Below the pieces are notes generated by a model, which ran no database searches, was not told the origin of the DNA, and saw only the letters and a list, made by a program, of their open reading frames with translations. A DNA stretch of 64,000 nucleotides from Ruminococcus sp. (GTDB lineage: Bacteria; Bacillota; Clostridia; Oscillospirales; Ruminococcaceae), in assembly GCF_024692365.1 (NCBI RefSeq), contig NZ_JAILMR010000008.1, positions 1-64,000 of the forward strand, read 5' to 3'. Of the stretch, positions 49,687-58,368 are shown in pieces; position 1 is the stretch's first letter; every line of letters starts with the position of its first letter. The translations under genes were made by a program, and so were the position numbers.

Positions 49687-49733
49687 GTCAATAATGAGTT
49701 TTTCTCATACTATTATAAAAGGAGTTGTTAATA

Positions 49734-50294
49734 TTGAAGATCGATGTTGAAAAGAGTTTCGTTACTCCACTGCCTGTTTTTATTATCGCTACCTATAATG
49801 CCATGGGTCAGCCCAATGCAATGAATGCTGCATGGGTAGGTCAGGTCGGCAGAGATATGATATCTATTAGCCTTGGCAATCATCCCAGTACCGAAAACAT
49901 CAAGCTGAACCGCGCATTTACAGTCAGCTATGCTACCAAGAAGTACACAGCTGAATGTGATTATGTAGGTATAGTGTCTTTTAATAAAGAACCCGAAAAG
50001 CTGAAAAAGGCTGGCTTTACCGTTACGCGTTCACAAAAGGTCAACGCGCCTATCATAGATCAGCTTCCTGTAGCTATCGAATGTGAAGTTGTAGATATCA
50101 TGCAGGAGTACGGTGAGACAAGGATCACCGCGAAGATAGTTGGCATGGTGGCAGATGATTCCGTGCTGACAGTCGGCAAGGTCGATCTCACAAAGCTTCA
50201 GCCGATCATGTATGATTCATCTGCCAAGACATACAGACTCATCGGTGAAAATGTCGGCGGCGCATGGAACGCAGGCAAGAAATTTATGGGATAA
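49734..50294 (+). CDS. Flavin reductase-like FMN-binding split-barrel protein
   Basis: The start is TTG 49734, ten bases after AGGAG. The 186-residue protein has the flavin-reductase-like pattern PVFIIATYNAMGQPNAMNAAW, ISISLGNHPSTENIKLN and FTVSYAT, typical of small FMN-binding split barrels in anaerobes that reduce flavin or act on unknown substrates. It is monocistronic, with a strong promoter and terminator. Its product might supply reduced flavin, but no link to the flavinylated system at 53-58 kb can be shown. Confidence 0.88.
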   Translation: MKIDVEKSFVTPLPVFIIATYNAMGQPNAMNAAWVGQVGRDMISISLGNHPSTENIKLNRAFTVSYATKKYTAECDYVGIVSFNKEPEKLKKAGFTVTRSQKVNAPIIDQLPVAIECEVVDIMQEYGETRITAKIVGMVADDSVLTVGKVDLTKLQPIMYDSSAKTYRLIGENVGGAWNAGKKFMG

Positions 50295-52874: not shown

Positions 52875-54395
52875 TTATTTTATAAGCTTTTTACCCTTTA
52901 TATGAGCAGCGATTTTGATAATATCCGTCACATTTATCTTACCGTCCTTATTTACATCGGCTGCATTCAGGCTCTTTTCGTCAAAAACTTTTTTACCCTT
53001 TATATAAGCGGCTATCTGCGTAATATCGGTAACGTTTATTGTATTGTCCCCATTAACATCACCCAAAGCATACTCGACAGGCTCCTCGCTCTTTTCGGGA
53101 TAAGTGAACACCAGATCATTCTCGTAGCCCTTAGCCTTTACAGTAATGTTGAAGCTTTCACCCTCGGCGAAAACATCGCTCTCGGTATCGAGTGTGCCAT
53201 CAGCCTTGATGATGACCTTTGCTCTTCTGCCGCTTGCAGAATACTCCTTCTCGTTTACAACAACGGTGGTGATGTTCTTGATATATGCTTCAAGCTGTTC
53301 GGCAGTAAAGCCTTCGGCTGCAACAAGCTTGTTCTCTTTGCCGTCAAATGCAGCGGGGATATCTGTTGTTGTCAGCATAAAGCTTGCTGAAAGATCTGCG
53401 TACTTGCCCTTACTGTCCTTAGCGGAAAGTGTATAGCTGCCGGGGTTTGCGTTTGTGAAAGTAAAGCTGTTGTCTTTGAAAGTTGCTTCAAGTCCATCGA
53501 TGCTGTACGCGATATTAAAATCGGCAGGAACATCTGCCAGTGTGATATCTGCCTTGCCTGCGCTGACTGCTGTATCTTCAACAGCGATACCGCCATTGAA
53601 CTTAACGGGAACATAAACTTCGCCAACAGCTACGTTTACATATCCTGCGGCAGTGATGTATTCGATCTCGGTTATGGTGTTGCCCATAAGACTTTCAAAG
53701 CCCTGATAGTCCAGTGTGTTGCCGTGGGGTTCGGTGGTCTTTATGCCTGATGTCCATGAGAACTCTGCATTTCTCCAGATGTTCTGTTCGTGACGAAGTG
53801 CATAAGCTTCGCCGCCTTTTGTTTTGATAAGTATACCGTAGATGATAGTTCCGTTCTCGGGCTTGCCTGTTACGTTTGCAGCATAATCGCCCCAGGGTGT
53901 GCTGGTGTTGAGTGTCATCGAACCTGTCATGTTTTCAGGCTTGTCATCATTTACAGCAGAGAAACTTACATCACCGTCAGTAACTGTAGCGGTCTTGTAT
54001 GCCTCTGGCTTTTCGGCAGAAGCTGTAAAACCGTAGTTGTTCTCACCAAGCGCATCAAGGTCTGCCTGCTTGATAGCAACAGGATATACAACACCGTAGA
54101 TCTTGCCCAGTTCATCGGAACCTTCCTCGCCTGCATTGTTGTATGTGCCCTCAAAAAGCTGACCCTCGCCGTTCATTCTTGTCTTGTTGACGGTTGCGGA
54201 AGTTACAGCGTCAAGACCTTCTGCATTGCTGAGATTCTCGGATTCTGCCGCATAGAACTTGTCATAGGGTATCTTCATGGTACCGTAAACATAATCCTCT
54301 GCCTTTGCCTCATCAGCAAAAACGTTCAGCGGTATCGAAGCCGCTGCCATTGCAGCGCATATCGACAAACTGAAAATTCTTTTAGTTCTTTTCAT
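52875..54395 (-). CDS. Secreted Tp47-like protein with C-terminal dockerin
   Basis: The 506-residue protein has a signal peptide (cut probably after VFA, residue 27). Residues about 33-230 resemble the Treponema Tp47 penicillin-binding lipoprotein domains (YGTMKIPYDKFYAAE, GLDAVTSATVNKT, GVVYPVAI). Residues about 240-435 look like Ig-type or substrate-binding beta modules. Residues 443-506 are a type I dockerin with two Ca2+-binding repeats (GDVNGDNTINVTD and ADVNKDGKINVTD). The dockerin should bind a cohesin on a scaffoldin or the cell surface. Catalysis is not evident. DAVTSAT at 62-68 resembles the ApbE target motif. It follows the apbE-eetA-eetB genes on the same strand. Confidence 0.88.
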   Translation of the reverse strand: MKRTKRIFSLSICAAMAAASIPLNVFADEAKAEDYVYGTMKIPYDKFYAAESENLSNAEGLDAVTSATVNKTRMNGEGQLFEGTYNNAGEEGSDELGKIYGVVYPVAIKQADLDALGENNYGFTASAEKPEAYKTATVTDGDVSFSAVNDDKPENMTGSMTLNTSTPWGDYAANVTGKPENGTIIYGILIKTKGGEAYALRHEQNIWRNAEFSWTSGIKTTEPHGNTLDYQGFESLMGNTITEIEYITAAGYVNVAVGEVYVPVKFNGGIAVEDTAVSAGKADITLADVPADFNIAYSIDGLEATFKDNSFTFTNANPGSYTLSAKDSKGKYADLSASFMLTTTDIPAAFDGKENKLVAAEGFTAEQLEAYIKNITTVVVNEKEYSASGRRAKVIIKADGTLDTESDVFAEGESFNITVKAKGYENDLVFTYPEKSEEPVEYALGDVNGDNTINVTDITQIAAYIKGKKVFDEKSLNAADVNKDGKINVTDIIKIAAHIKGKKLIK

Positions 54396-54428
54396 ATGTA
54401 CTACTCCTTATCATTTATTTTACCATAA

Positions 54429-54446
54429 AGTTAGAAAAAACTAACT
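54429..54446 (-). promoter_or_regulatory. Palindromic operator before the dockerin gene
   Basis: AGTTAG-AAAAAA-CTAACT, a perfect palindrome with a 6-base centre, lies 34 bases before the start codon. It matches sites at 56535, 56618, 56660 and 56756. The promoter itself is not clear. Confidence 0.55.
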
Positions 54447-54537
54447 CTGTGGTATATTACCTTGCTTCAACATCAAGTATCATACCATATCGGTAGAGTT
54501 TCGTCAATCGTTTTTGCTAAATATTTACAAGTAAGTC

Positions 54538-55041
54538 TTAGCTAACCTTTCTTGTCCGTTTAAGCCTTTTGCAGACCATCTGGGTGCAAAGCCCCGTAAA
54601 TAATCCCGCGATGCAACCCGATATCATCAGAAACGGGAGGTACGCTATCACCGAAGTGCTTTTCAGCACAAGCATCGCAACAGCTATCTGTCCGATATTA
54701 TGGCACACCGCTCCCGCTATGCTAAGGAACCACATATTGTCCTCGCGAATGAAATTTTTCAGGATCTCCATGCCTATGAAGCAAAGGGTTCCGCCTGCAA
54801 TGCTGTACCAGAGTGCCATCAGGTTTCCGCTGAAAAGCGCACCGAGCAATATCCTGCTGTAAAGCATCATGGCGGTTTCACCGGGACGATAATTATACAC
54901 GCAGTACACCGTTACGATATTGGCAAGCCCAAGTTTCACCCCGGGGATAGGTACAATATCGGGTATACGCAGTTCAACGATGAATATTATCAGAGCAAGG
55001 CAGGTCAGAAGACCAAGATGTGTAAGTTTTTTGGTATCCAT
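54538..55041 (-). CDS. eetB: Gx transporter family protein, EetB-like
   Basis: The 167-residue membrane protein has about five helices and the family pattern LGLLTCLALIIFIVELRIPD and PGVKLGLANIVTVY. These match the Gx-transporter / heptaprenyl diphosphate synthase component I family, which includes EetB of the Listeria extracellular electron transfer locus. ATG 55041 with GAGGTGA is chosen over the longer frame that overlaps the NusG-like gene. Its pairing with the NusG-domain-II gene upstream (4-base gap) is the known EetA-EetB arrangement. The molecular role is not settled; energy-coupled transport or quinone-related function has been proposed. Confidence 0.87.
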   Translation of the reverse strand: MDTKKLTHLGLLTCLALIIFIVELRIPDIVPIPGVKLGLANIVTVYCVYNYRPGETAMMLYSRILLGALFSGNLMALWYSIAGGTLCFIGMEILKNFIREDNMWFLSIAGAVCHNIGQIAVAMLVLKSTSVIAYLPFLMISGCIAGLFTGLCTQMVCKRLKRTRKVS

Positions 55042-55045
55042 CACT

Positions 55046-55405
55046 TCACCTCGCCGTGCCGTCGATATCACCGTCCTCATATTCTATCACAAGTCTGTTC
55101 GGCAGACATACTATCGGCTTGCCGTCCTCCAGCCAGCCTGTGTCAATACAGATATGGTCGGGACAATCTGCGCTTTTCATGTGTATCCTGCCGCCCTTTA
55201 TCTCGATGATATTTTTCCTTCCATCGTACTCGACATCAATTGTCTTGTCCTTTTCCGAATCAAGATCAATGTGGTATAGAACCTTTCCATCCTGTGAAAT
55301 AACAACCGTCTTCCCGCTTTTTGGCTTCATGACATACGCACACCATACCGCCGCCCCGATAAGTATCACCGCAGTTATGACGATATAGACAGTTCTTGCC
55401 CTCAT
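55046..55405 (-). CDS. eetA: NusG domain II protein, EetA-like
   Basis: The 119-residue protein has one N-terminal membrane helix (about 6-25) and an extracellular small beta domain with the NusG-II pattern (DGKVLYHIDLDSEKD, IEIKGGRIHMKSADCPDHICIDTGW, CLPNRLVIE). CPDHIC is typical of the family. It corresponds to EetA of the Listeria locus. Its ATG overlaps the apbE stop, and the EetB-like gene follows, so the three are translationally coupled. Confidence 0.87.
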   Translation of the reverse strand: MRARTVYIVITAVILIGAAVWCAYVMKPKSGKTVVISQDGKVLYHIDLDSEKDKTIDVEYDGRKNIIEIKGGRIHMKSADCPDHICIDTGWLEDGKPIVCLPNRLVIEYEDGDIDGTAR

Positions 55406-56445
55406 CTTTCCACCACCGTGACATCTTCCGAGTTCGATGCAAATCTTTCTGCTATCCCATCGGTGACATAAACGCCGCCATCATCGGTTACGAGAATCAT
55501 ATCGAAATCACCGTTATCCCGCCAATAGGCACAGGCATCATCAAGACCCATGACATAAAGCGAAGTCGAAAGCGCATCGCACATTCTGCCCTCACTGCCG
55601 ATTATCGTCACACTTGCAAGACCGCTTTCTGCGGGTCTGCCTGTTTCGGGGTCGAGGATATGCTTGTAGATCACGCCGTCCTGTTCAAAAAACCTTTCGT
55701 ATCCTCCCGACGTAATAACAGCACATTCACCCACGGTGAGAGTACCTATACTGCCATCTCCAAAGGGGTCGCGTATGCCGACTTTCCACTTCGTTCCGTC
55801 GGGTTTTGCATCTCCGATGGTTTGGATATTTCCTCCAAGGTCAAGCAGTGCGGAAGTCACACCCTGTTCTTTCAAAGCCCTAGCCGCCGCATCACCTGCA
55901 CAGCCTTTAGCAATCGCGCCAAGGTCTATTTCCGTTTTTTCGGGTACAGATACCTTGCCGTTATCAACGGTAATTTTGTCAGCACCCTTGCGTTCCAGAA
56001 GTTCGGATATCTCACCGTCATCGGGTACACGATATTCTCCTGTGGTAAAGCCCCACGCCCTCAAAACAGGGTAAAGTGTGATGTCCAGCGCACCATTTGT
56101 CTTACCATGCATATCTATGGCAAATTTCAGCAGTTCTTCCGTTTCAGCACTTACAGGAACTTCCGCCCCACTGCTGTGGTTGATGGCGTAGATCTCACTG
56201 TTCTCATCTGTTACCGACCAGAGTTTTTCAAGACGTGTTATTTCTTTCTGCGCAGCTTCGATGCCTTTTTTGCCGTTGTTTCCGTAGGCGGTGATGGTCA
56301 TATAGGTGTCCATCGCGAATACCGAACCACTGCTTTTTTTGTCGCCTGAAACATTAGCAGTGCTGTCAACTGCTTTGTCCGCAGAACATGAATTCAGCAT
56401 CAGCAGGGCAGCTATCAGAACACCTGCCGCTAAATTTTTCTTCAT
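55402..56445 (-). CDS. apbE: ApbE FAD:protein FMN transferase, lipoprotein
   Basis: The 347-residue enzyme attaches FMN from FAD covalently to Thr/Ser in S/T-GAT motifs of exported redox proteins. ATG 56445 follows GGAGG at seven bases and begins a lipoprotein signal (LNSC, Cys 20), so it works outside the membrane. Motifs FAMDTYMTITAYG, GAIAKGCAGDAAARAL, ITSGGYERFF and HILDPETGRPAESGLASVTI with CDALSTSLYVMG are all present. The divergent gene encodes a protein with a matching FMN-binding domain, a likely substrate. The EetA and EetB genes follow directly. Confidence 0.95.
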   Translation of the reverse strand: MKKNLAAGVLIAALLMLNSCSADKAVDSTANVSGDKKSSGSVFAMDTYMTITAYGNNGKKGIEAAQKEITRLEKLWSVTDENSEIYAINHSSGAEVPVSAETEELLKFAIDMHGKTNGALDITLYPVLRAWGFTTGEYRVPDDGEISELLERKGADKITVDNGKVSVPEKTEIDLGAIAKGCAGDAAARALKEQGVTSALLDLGGNIQTIGDAKPDGTKWKVGIRDPFGDGSIGTLTVGECAVITSGGYERFFEQDGVIYKHILDPETGRPAESGLASVTIIGSEGRMCDALSTSLYVMGLDDACAYWRDNGDFDMILVTDDGGVYVTDGIAERFASNSEDVTVVER

Positions 56446-56534
56446 ATATTTCCTCCGATCTGCCGCGATCTTATGTCCGCAGGTAGAACTATATTTTTGA
56501 AGTTCCATCAGACCTTTGGCATAACTTTCATTTA

Positions 56535-56550
56535 GTTAGTCACAACTAGC
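56535..56550 (-). promoter_or_regulatory. Operator at the apbE promoter
   Basis: Read on the minus strand, GCTAG-TTGTGA-CTAAC lies about +4 to +19 of the apbE promoter, a palindrome with a 6-base centre. Confidence 0.5.
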
Positions 56551-56560
56551 CGCAAGGAGT

Positions 56561-56589
56561 ATTATACTATATCGCCATGGAAAAATCAA
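56561..56589 (-). promoter_or_regulatory. apbE operon promoter
   Basis: On the minus strand TTGATT (56584-56589), 17 bases, TATAAT (56561-56566). Confidence 0.7.
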
Positions 56590-56617
56590 GGGTATCTTTC
56601 AACGAATCGAGAGAAAA

Positions 56618-56673
56618 TTAGTCAAGGCTAATAAGTCATAATGACGAATAATCTAAAAGTTAACCAAGGCTAA
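56618..56673. promoter_or_regulatory. Paired operators in the divergent region
   Basis: ATTAG-TCAAGG-CTAAT (core 56618-56631) and TTAA-CCAAGG-CTAA (56660-56673) share CAAGGCTAAT and the 6-base spacing of the other sites. They lie between the apbE promoter and the FMN-binding protein promoter, 42 bases apart, i.e. four helical turns. Confidence 0.5.
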
Positions 56674-56715
56674 TTTTGTGAATTTAAACTTTTCGTAAAA
56701 ATAAATAATCTTTGA

Positions 56716-56771
56716 TTGACAAAACTTTCCACATGACGTATAATGATTTATCGTGGTTAGTTTCATATAAC
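56716..56771 (+). promoter_or_regulatory. Promoter and operator of the FMN-binding protein gene
   Basis: TTGACA (56716-56721), 17 bases, TATAAT (56739-56744) predict a start near 56751. GTTAG-TTTCAT-ATAAC (56756-56771), one base off the palindrome, lies at about +5 to +20, the same place as the apbE operator. This and the preceding sites account for the gap 56446-56874. Confidence 0.65.
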
Positions 56772-56874
56772 GAGAAAAGGTCAACTCACGAACATATAGC
56801 AGAAATACAGATATAGAAAAATGCGGTGTTCAGCAGAGTCAGCCTTAACAAAAACAGATAGTGAGGTAGAGAAT

Positions 56875-58368
56875 ATGTTATTTCTGATAGCTTTGACCAT
56901 CGCAGTGCTGTTCTCGGTGCTGTGCGCAGGTGCGCTGAAAAAAGTGCCAGCGGCGTTTTACATCGGCGGCACGCTGATATCGGTGCTGATGATAGTGCTG
57001 GCACAACAGCCTGTGGAGAATGAGTTTCTCCGCAAGTATGTGATAGGTCTTTTTTCACGAGGTGCGCTGGCTGGTGCACTCTGGATGGTAGTAATGGGTA
57101 TGCGAGTACTCCCGGACGGCAGCAAACCGATTAAACGTCTGATGCCTGTAAGGGGCGAACTATCGATCTTTGCGGCGACAGTTACCCTGTCCCACATAGT
57201 GTTCTACGGAGTCTCATACATCAAGCGTCTTATCGACCCCAATTTCAGCAAGGGTACAGACTTCCTGCTGACCTGCGTGGTGTGTGCGGCGCTCGTACTG
57301 ATAATGGTTCCGCTGACGGTAATATCATTCAAGACGATTCGCAAAAAGATGAACGCTAAAAAATGGAAGAACATTCAGCGTGCGGCATACGTTTTCTATG
57401 CGCTGATATATCTGCACATAATCATACTTTTCCTACCCAAGGCTAAGGCGGGAATCGAGGGCTATTTCCTCAGCTGTCTGGTTTACACTGCGGTGTTCGG
57501 GACTTACATGGTACTCAGGGTGAGAAAACTGTACGTGAAGAAGAAATCTCCCGAAAACAAGGCATGGCTGAACATTGCAAGTACAGCCTGCGCAGTTGCG
57601 CTGACAGCCATAGTTGCTTTTTGCAGTTACGGCAAACCTCAGAACAAGGTGAAAACTCATAAGCAAACTGCAAAGACGGTTACTGTAAGGAAAGTCACCG
57701 ACACTTCACCCACCGATGGCGAAGACAGACCAACTTTAAGGCTGAGTGCTGATACTGACGACACTTCGTCAAATGACGAAGGCGAAAGCAGTTCTCCCGA
57801 CAGCGAAAGTAAGGCAGACAGCAGTTCTTCCAAAAAGGATAGTTCAAGTAAAAAGGACAATTCGTCGGGTGCAGATGATTCCGATGAAGAAAACAACGAA
57901 GATGAAAATCAGGATCAGCAAGAGGAACATAACGATCAGGACGAACACGAAGAACAAAACGATCATAAAGAACAGCATGAAGAAAAGAAAGATAACAGGC
58001 AGGAAGAAAAGCACGATAAGCAGGAGGAACAGCATCAGGAAGTAAAAGAACCTGTTCAGACTCAGCCCCCTGTGACCGAACCGCCCGAGCCCGAGTACAT
58101 CTACAACAACGGTACATATGAGGATTCAGCCTACGGATACGACGGGGAAGTTCACGTCAAGATCACCATCGAGAACGATGTCATCACCGAAATATCGGCA
58201 TACTCCGATGAGGAAGAACCAGAGTATTTCGATTCAGCTTACGAAACCGTGGCAGGGGATATCCTCTATTATCAGAGTTACGAAGTTGATGCAGTTTCAG
58301 GCGCGACATACAGCTCCAACGCGATAATGAAAGCTGTTAAGAAGTGCCTTGATCAGGCGAGAAGATAA
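56875..58368 (+). CDS. Ferric-reductase-like membrane protein with FMN-binding domain
   Basis: ATG 56875 follows GAGGTAGAGA and opens a hydrophobic segment. The 497-residue protein has about seven or eight membrane helices (1-251). His 107 in TLSHIVFYG and His 181 in ALIYLHIII lie in two helices, as heme ligands do in YedZ/MsrQ-type ferric reductase domains. Residues about 255-407 are a hydrophilic linker rich in Asp, Glu, Ser, Lys, Gln and His. Residues 408-497 are an FMN-binding domain with VDAVSGATYSS; Thr 478 is the expected covalent FMN site made by ApbE. It may pass electrons from inside through heme to an extracellular flavin. The acceptor is unknown. Confidence 0.88.
   Translation: MLFLIALTIAVLFSVLCAGALKKVPAAFYIGGTLISVLMIVLAQQPVENEFLRKYVIGLFSRGALAGALWMVVMGMRVLPDGSKPIKRLMPVRGELSIFAATVTLSHIVFYGVSYIKRLIDPNFSKGTDFLLTCVVCAALVLIMVPLTVISFKTIRKKMNAKKWKNIQRAAYVFYALIYLHIIILFLPKAKAGIEGYFLSCLVYTAVFGTYMVLRVRKLYVKKKSPENKAWLNIASTACAVALTAIVAFCSYGKPQNKVKTHKQTAKTVTVRKVTDTSPTDGEDRPTLRLSADTDDTSSNDEGESSSPDSESKADSSSSKKDSSSKKDNSSGADDSDEENNEDENQDQQEEHNDQDEHEEQNDHKEQHEEKKDNRQEEKHDKQEEQHQEVKEPVQTQPPVTEPPEPEYIYNNGTYEDSAYGYDGEVHVKITIENDVITEISAYSDEEEPEYFDSAYETVAGDILYYQSYEVDAVSGATYSSNAIMKAVKKCLDQARR

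Follow-up and report, generated by a model that had tools for sequence, protein, structure and literature searches.

In this work we looked at a redox locus in the first 64,000 nucleotides of contig NZ_JAILMR010000008.1 from Ruminococcus sp. (RefSeq assembly GCF_024692365.1), a stretch that we call the window and to which position numbers refer. An earlier note on this DNA had described five genes at positions 52,875 to 58,368 as a locus for flavin-based electron transfer outside the cytosol, and this description stands: open reading frame calls and Pfam place all five genes where they had been put, with ApbE, EetA and EetB adjacent and a fusion protein that carries an FMN_bind (FMN, flavin mononucleotide) domain alongside. 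The note did not contain the DtxR-type palindromes, which are present at the locus. Palindromes that are shared by its promoters, by feo genes and by a DtxR-family gene place the locus in a predicted DtxR-type iron regulon, and they point to iron assimilation rather than to respiration. The reading that we consider probable is that the locus encodes a surface reductase which works with flavin, is regulated by iron and serves iron assimilation. Its surprising part, which appears to be new, is that a family of proteins similar to Tp47, the 47-kDa lipoprotein of Treponema pallidum, would be the iron-box-controlled partner of the flavin machinery.

The palindrome has the consensus RTTAG-N6-CTAAY, whose core TTAG-N6-CTAA we take to fit the DtxR/IdeR core. 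Six of the seven sites in the window, two perfect and four with one mismatch, fall between 54.4 and 56.8 kb, where 0.29 are expected; this interval was picked after the clustering had been seen, and it is the clustering alone that is notable. Each of the three promoter-like sequences of the locus is accompanied by a palindrome (Table 1), and the scan for such promoter-like sites gave 14 against 10 in shuffles. In an alignment of four genomes the arms of the palindromes are kept while the six central bases vary. Over the whole genome of the window (G000; 3.68 Mb in 140 contigs, 94% complete) there are 24 perfect sites against 5 for the reversed control. The palindromes elsewhere in the genome flank a DtxR-family gene (Fe_dep_repress, E = 3.4e-12) with DUF3793, a flavodoxin, feoA and feoB, a group that carries five of them (L196:6048-10795, contig C32), as well as a ZIP transporter, a second feoA-feoB pair, a ferredoxin, PFOR and Trep_Strep transporters. 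The flavodoxin by the DtxR-family gene is 93% identical to a Pfam-checked flavodoxin of genome G005. Divergent from a feoA-feoB pair, with a palindrome in between, lies the other FMN_bind gene of the genome (L003:8474-9595, contig C91), which has the motif DAVSRAT. The Trep_Strep membrane proteins near palindromes (L197:6352-6936 and L198:7756-8334) belong to ECF-like transporters, possibly metal or chelate uptake systems. Frames for DUF3793 and flavodoxin also adjoin Tp47-like genes in other Clostridia (e.g., L132 and L151).

The same palindrome accompanies the Tp47-like genes of the wider family. The 12 intergenic regions of FRD-type loci, from which the motif was partly derived, hold 15 perfect sites, where shuffles average 0.05. 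The upstream regions of 60 other Tp47-like genes, which are independent of the motif derivation, hold 50 perfect sites against 0.04; this set leaves out L102-L107, L111 and the frames that begin 200 bases or less from the start of their locus. At least one perfect site was found in the ~400 bases upstream of 44 of the 67 Tp47-like genes and of 10 of the 468 other genes (Fisher, 1.2e-37), the latter being mechanical open reading frame calls including shadow frames, which perhaps lowered the control rate. The corresponding counts are 20/111 for genes with a redox or iron label and 10/104 for genes that lie no more than 2.5 kb away from a Tp47-like one.

The membrane protein of the locus, the FRD-FMN fusion, begins at a conserved ATG (56875), which bears out the 497 residues given in the earlier note, and it does join membrane part and flavin acceptor in a single polypeptide, as had been proposed there. 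It consists of a hydrophobic part with His107 and His181, a hydrophilic linker of ~157 residues and an FMN_bind domain (Pfam E = 6.9e-16). By simple hydropathy there are 7-8 hydrophobic segments in the four dockerin-type orthologues and 5-8 across all 11 orthologues; in these 11 the linker from the last hydrophobic segment to the FMN domain measures 112-178 residues, of which 66-82% are S, E, D, Q, T, K, P or N. Such a linker could in principle reach into or through the Gram-positive wall. The ApbE-substrate motif is present, with D472 and the SGAT of residues 475-478 invariant in 11/11 orthologues. The ApbE of the locus is the only ApbE match in the genome, and there are two FMN_bind matches, each with a single domain: the fusion itself and the protein beside the second feoAB.

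Based on these features the following mechanism can be suggested. When iron is short, a DtxR-family repressor would leave the palindromes at the divergent promoters; the sharing of the motif is observed, and binding and repression are presumed from it. ApbE would put FMN on the threonine of SGAT in the 497-residue protein, an attachment that is expected because the motif is exact and the genome has a single ApbE. From a cytosolic donor, electrons may then cross a ferric-reductase-like membrane part with one heme and reach the FMN domain; this domain would hang outside on its hydrophilic tether. A Tp47-like partner, which a dockerin would fix to the cell surface in this genome and sortase-like tails in relatives, might either accept the electrons or present a ferric substrate, after which ferrous iron could enter via FeoAB. 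EetA and EetB are probably accessory membrane parts, like their counterparts in the Listeria cluster.

Conservation was examined in 61 genomes, where the close orthologues are all found in one genus. The full-length dockerin form is present in G000 and, at 83-87% identity, in G017, G022 and G027. A conserved neighbourhood, which the earlier note had proposed to look for, was found, and the linkage exceeds what chance would give: the FRD-FMN gene is divergent from ApbE-EetA-EetB-dockerin in all four of these genomes. In G017, whose assembly is fragmented, the dockerin gene has an in-frame stop codon that breaks it in two (L066:38-1552) and feoA adjoins the FRD gene. Three more genomes (G007, G023, which is Ruminococcus albus 8, and G024) have FRD-FMN divergent from the same N-terminal domain with a C-terminal NPxTG-type tail and no dockerin, and a doubled version with a dockerin occurs in G002 and G023. 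Full-length FRD-FMN and Tp47-like genes occur together in 7 of the 61 genomes, the Tp47-like gene alone in one and neither in 53 (Fisher, 1.8e-8). In G049 only the membrane part has a relative. G005 holds remnants of the dockerin gene and of FMN_bind at separate places (L070:8850-9191 and L075:9903-10118), the former beside DtxR-DUF3793-flavodoxin-feoB; this genome has no ApbE match and no FMN_bind match besides the fragment, and its parts seem to have been lost together.

The dockerin protein was called Tp47-like in the earlier note, a name that the fold and a profile comparison across the motif region bear out but Pfam does not: neither PBP-Tp47_a nor PBP-Tp47_c matches the window protein, and among 99 relatives six have a weak PBP-Tp47_a match (best E = 0.014). 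An AlphaFold model of the domain, made from a 99-sequence alignment, has a predicted local distance difference test score of 92.4 (an earlier run with 10 sequences gave 56 and no useful fold match, which the larger alignment cured). Its best match in the PDB is Tp47 itself (1o75; Foldseek E = 2.3e-9, probability 1.00), followed by a match at 6.9e-5. Model and 1o75 align with template modelling (TM) scores of 0.55/0.45, 14% identity and a root-mean-square deviation of 9.7 over 434 columns including gaps. Profiles of the domain alone failed to reach 1o75 by sequence. A profile of five true Tp47 domains from relatives, of which one was Pfam-checked (L145) and four were chosen by likeness, matches 1o75 (E = 4.7e-21), and hhalign aligns it to the window-type domain with E = 2.7e-8 over 44 columns that include the motif. 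The window protein shares with Tp47 the fold and the motif region D-A-V-[ST]-x-A-T, and differs in carrying a dockerin in place of the lipid anchor. That the dockerin has a surface role, as suggested before, is supported; it is more likely to anchor its own Tp47-like protein than to position a partner, given that in relatives a sortase-like tail stands at the same place.

This domain may serve as a flavin carrier, as an iron binder or only as a scaffold. Across 99 aligned domains the motif D-A-x-[ST]-S-A-T has Thr in 99, Asp in 98, [ST] in 91 and Ala in 92, and the Gly position is Ser in 93 and Gly in none; the strict D-x-x-[ST]-G-A-[ST] is therefore not matched, while the looser D-x-x-[ST]-x-A-[ST] fits 83 of the 99. 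Nine of 101 domain stretches were left out of alignment A6; four of them span the motif and have it, and five begin past it, with such a motif 100 residues or less upstream. His173, Trp178, Lys42 and several aromatics are conserved about as strongly, a finding just as compatible with a site for a metal or a cofactor. As the scan for relatives relied on patterns built around Y-x-x-M-x-I-P-Y and H-x-x-x-I-W, these residues were in part selected to be conserved; the patterns did not include the DAxSAT motif. The likeness to an ApbE site, although it fails the strict definition, is suggestive, and one may propose that ApbE flavinylates the Tp47-like domain as well; this new substrate would carry FMN on the Thr of its motif, and a chain of two flavin steps would join membrane and surface. 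In favour are the conservation of the motif and the presence of ApbE in 23 of 79 family loci, and the accessible part of PMC12052999 would allow for this: flavinylation sites are read there as D-x-x-[ST]-G-A-[ST], yet Thr is essential, Asp nearly dispensable and a Gly-to-Ala change still ~50% modified. An FMN_bind domain was also found in 17 of 73 Tp47-like frames by hidden Markov models (HMMs) built in this work, with which Pfam agreed in five of the six tested (all five N-terminal parts tested alone passed the cut-off; the whole L145 protein reached 18.0 bits against 22). Yet the published Gly is missing from every domain, true Tp47 has Arg at this position, the fold is that of Tp47 and not of FMN_bind, and in 56 of the 79 loci no ApbE is seen near the relatives, so that we regard this proposal as rather unlikely. 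We put forward tentatively, as something that could well prove wrong, the broader idea that iron-regulated surface flavin electron transfer in Clostridia has in the Tp47-like domain a core part that had gone unrecognised, one that either carries flavin covalently on the Thr of DAxSSAT, as a new class of carrier, or accepts electrons while binding the ferric substrate. If true, Tp47 of the syphilis spirochaete would descend from this iron-reduction machinery and its reported penicillin-binding activity would be secondary. The accessible parts of PMC6351036, where Tp47 is a bifunctional penicillin-binding/beta-lactamase protein, and of PMC5956850, where it counts as functionally assigned, speak against this broader idea.

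The relatives were taken from the best 80 of 255 reported, which gave 79 loci, and counts of neighbours are limited to the stretch available for each locus. The loci are mostly from Clostridia, with single Spirochaetales, Flexilinea and Alistipes-labelled records; 69 of them have a Tp47-labelled frame, and the 10 without one were dropped. According to our HMMs, FMN_bind occurs in 41 of the 79 loci, EetB in 9, FRD in 9, flavodoxin in 8, EetA in 5, DUF3793 in 5, DtxR in 3 and FeoB in one, and at least one of ApbE, EetA, EetB, FRD and FMN_bind in 46. Pfam confirmed 10/10 separate FMN_bind genes and 9/10 other labels, the exception being the FRD match in L172. There are 25 ApbE frames in 1.04 Mb of these loci, far above the chance level of about one per 2.5 Mb. 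In L145 (Coprococcus comes) one protein of 1698 residues holds HID, Pfam Tp47 a and c, the window-type domain and the sub-threshold FMN_bind, and adjoins ApbE, EetA, EetB and a protein with four FMN_bind stretches. Rough text patterns, to be taken as a hint only, suggest 14 sortase-like, 8 SLH-like, 7 repeat-like and 44 unknown anchors among 73 frames. The longest family frame here is L154:1-9162, which is open where its contig starts; its 3053 residues include FMN_bind as well as two Tp47-like domains. An Alistipes-labelled contig of a metagenome-assembled genome (L106) has a Ruminococcus-like Tp47/FRD-FMN/ApbE/EetB operon and is probably misbinned.

Several of our results weigh against an iron-regulated surface reductase. 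Ferric_reduct (PF01794) matches the 497-residue protein with E = 7e-6 and 26.5 bits, under the cut-off of 28 bits, and exactly two histidines (107 and 181) are shared, both invariant in 11/11 orthologues, which allows at most one bis-His heme; because of these two points heme binding and electron transfer across the membrane are only inferred. As to the electron donor, no NAD-binding domain was found in this protein by Pfam, UbiA has no match in the 94% complete genome (14/14 controls were positive) and neither of the two FMN_bind proteins is RnfG. With one mismatch allowed, the palindrome is no more frequent in the window as a whole than chance predicts (7 found, 7.86 expected). In 33 of the 79 loci the available stretch shows none of the ApbE, Eet, FRD and FMN_bind genes. 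The joint occurrences of FRD-FMN and the Tp47-like gene are not independent events, as they all come from one genus, and G002 has the Tp47-like gene without FRD-FMN. ApbE is no mark of the system by itself, because it occurs in 55 of the 61 genomes (61 matches, about one per 2.5 Mb).

Listeria-type extracellular electron transfer, which involves EetA, EetB, FmnB, PplA and Ndh2, is the known system to which the earlier note compared the locus. One can ask whether the locus serves such respiratory transfer to a terminal acceptor, with EetA and EetB as the main membrane path. EetA-, EetB- and ApbE-type genes do lie together in the window, and EetA, EetB and ApbE with FMN_bind genes are found also in L141, L145, L168 and L174 (checked by Pfam for all four in L168 and for FMN_bind in L145). 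Nevertheless the comparison is weak: in addition to the two membrane histidines, the genome has no detected UbiA (demethylmenaquinone) and no PplA-like protein among its two FMN_bind proteins, which have one domain each where the PplA type has two; palindromes stand at all three promoter-like sites, and in G023 EetA and EetB were not found within ~8 kb of the FRD-FMN gene. We consider respiratory transfer improbable. Still less credible, to the point of being very improbable, is that the dockerin protein is a cellulosome or cell-wall protein and a chance neighbour of the redox genes, as might be argued from the type I dockerin, from at least 25 dockerin-like and three cohesin matches in the genome (two above the cut-off, one of which passes only together with its neighbours) and from the penicillin-binding and weak beta-lactamase activities reported for Tp47 in the accessible part of PMC6351036, since the layout is kept in 4/4 dockerin-form genomes, the same domain with a sortase-like tail is divergent from FRD-FMN in three more and palindromes lie upstream of Tp47-like genes family-wide.

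Also among the closest known systems are the MsrQ-like flavinylation gene clusters described in the accessible part of PMC8238504 (Meheust et al., 2021), for which a link to iron uptake was proposed as it is here. The window differs from them in that FMN_bind is fused to the membrane part, which has two histidines only and no NAD domain, and in the presence of EetA/EetB and of a Tp47-like surface partner, with feo genes sharing its regulon in place of a VIT1 gene inside the cluster. The same source describes 'large unannotated' wall-bound proteins beside multi-flavinylated ones. Similarly, Tp47-like relatives adjoin proteins with 3-5 FMN_bind stretches (e.g., L145, L120 and L173), and the Tp47-like protein of L145 has FIVAR domains, a wall domain named there; in contrast, the Ruminococcus form has a single FMN domain. 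Tp47 and DtxR are unmentioned in that part of PMC8238504, which does mention Fur repression of PepSY-like clusters, and Tp47 is unmentioned in the accessible parts of PMC10979944, which widens the cytochromes and substrates, and of PMC12052999. A literature search, with subscription papers outside its scope, gave nothing that connects Tp47 with flavinylation, extracellular electron transfer or DtxR, and the accessible parts of papers naming both Tp47 and flavin do not connect them. Our reading would join the Tp47 fold, extracellular flavin electron transfer and the DtxR-type palindrome across gut Clostridia, would offer an identity for the large wall proteins of multi-flavinylated clusters and would suggest a reason for the retention of ApbE in rumen Ruminococcus. 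The role of the Tp47 family becomes a testable question in gut commensals.

Table 1. Features of the locus, in window positions
Feature	Position	Strand	Remarks
FRD-FMN_bind fusion, 497 residues	56875..58368	+	divergent from ApbE-EetA-EetB-dockerin genes
Flavinylation motif DAVSGAT of FMN_bind domain	58288..58308	+	exact D-x-x-[ST]-G-A-[ST]
Promoter-like TTGACA-17-TATAAT, FRD-FMN gene	56716..56744	+	
Palindrome, 1 mismatch, GTTAGTTTCATATAAC	56756..56771	.	directly 3' of FRD -10
Palindrome, 1 mismatch, GTTAACCAAGGCTAAT	56659..56674	.	
Palindrome, perfect, ATTAGTCAAGGCTAAT	56617..56632	.	
Promoter-like TTGATT-17-TATAAT, ApbE-EetA-EetB	56561..56589	-	
Palindrome, 1 mismatch, GTTAGTCACAACTAGC	56535..56550	.	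directly 3' of ApbE -10
ApbE FMN transferase	55402..56445	-	Pfam ApbE E 9e-85; likely lipoprotein (LNSC, by eye)
EetA / NusG domain II protein	55046..55405	-	Pfam NusG_II E 2.8e-31
EetB / Gx transporter	54538..55080	-	Pfam Hpre_diP_synt_I E 3.4e-41; sole match in genome
Palindrome-like, 1 mismatch	54531..54546	.	at EetB end
Promoter-like TTGACG-17-TATGAT, dockerin gene	54479..54507	-	
Palindrome, perfect, GTTAGAAAAAACTAAC	54430..54445	.	upstream of dockerin gene
Secreted dockerin protein, 506 residues	52875..54395	-	signal peptide (by eye), Tp47-like, Shr-like HID, type I dockerin
Tp47-like domain, residues 30-345 (316 residues)	53361..54308	-	no Pfam match above cut-off; AlphaFold + Foldseek
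Motif DAVTSAT, residues 62-68	54192..54212	-	near-invariant in family; ApbE-site-like, Ser for Gly
Shr-like_HID domain	53115..53339	-	Pfam E 7.8e-9
Type I dockerin domain	52908..53066	-	Pfam Dockerin_1 E 7.4e-13

ApbE, EetA and EetB form one coupled group on the minus strand, as had been noted, with frames that overlap as called by 4 bases (ApbE/EetA) and 35 bases (EetA/EetB). The most likely start of ApbE is 56445, which gives 347 residues and matches the relatives, while the open frame reaches 56508. The dockerin gene follows EetB after 142 bases on the same strand and has its own promoter-like site and its own palindrome. The search query P0003 had no match in the plasmid collection, and its matches in 148 family genomes were mostly to its own low-complexity tail. 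About 3 kb from the locus, at positions 49725-50294, the window also encodes a flavin-reductase-like protein, a homologue of which lies within the L168 cluster.

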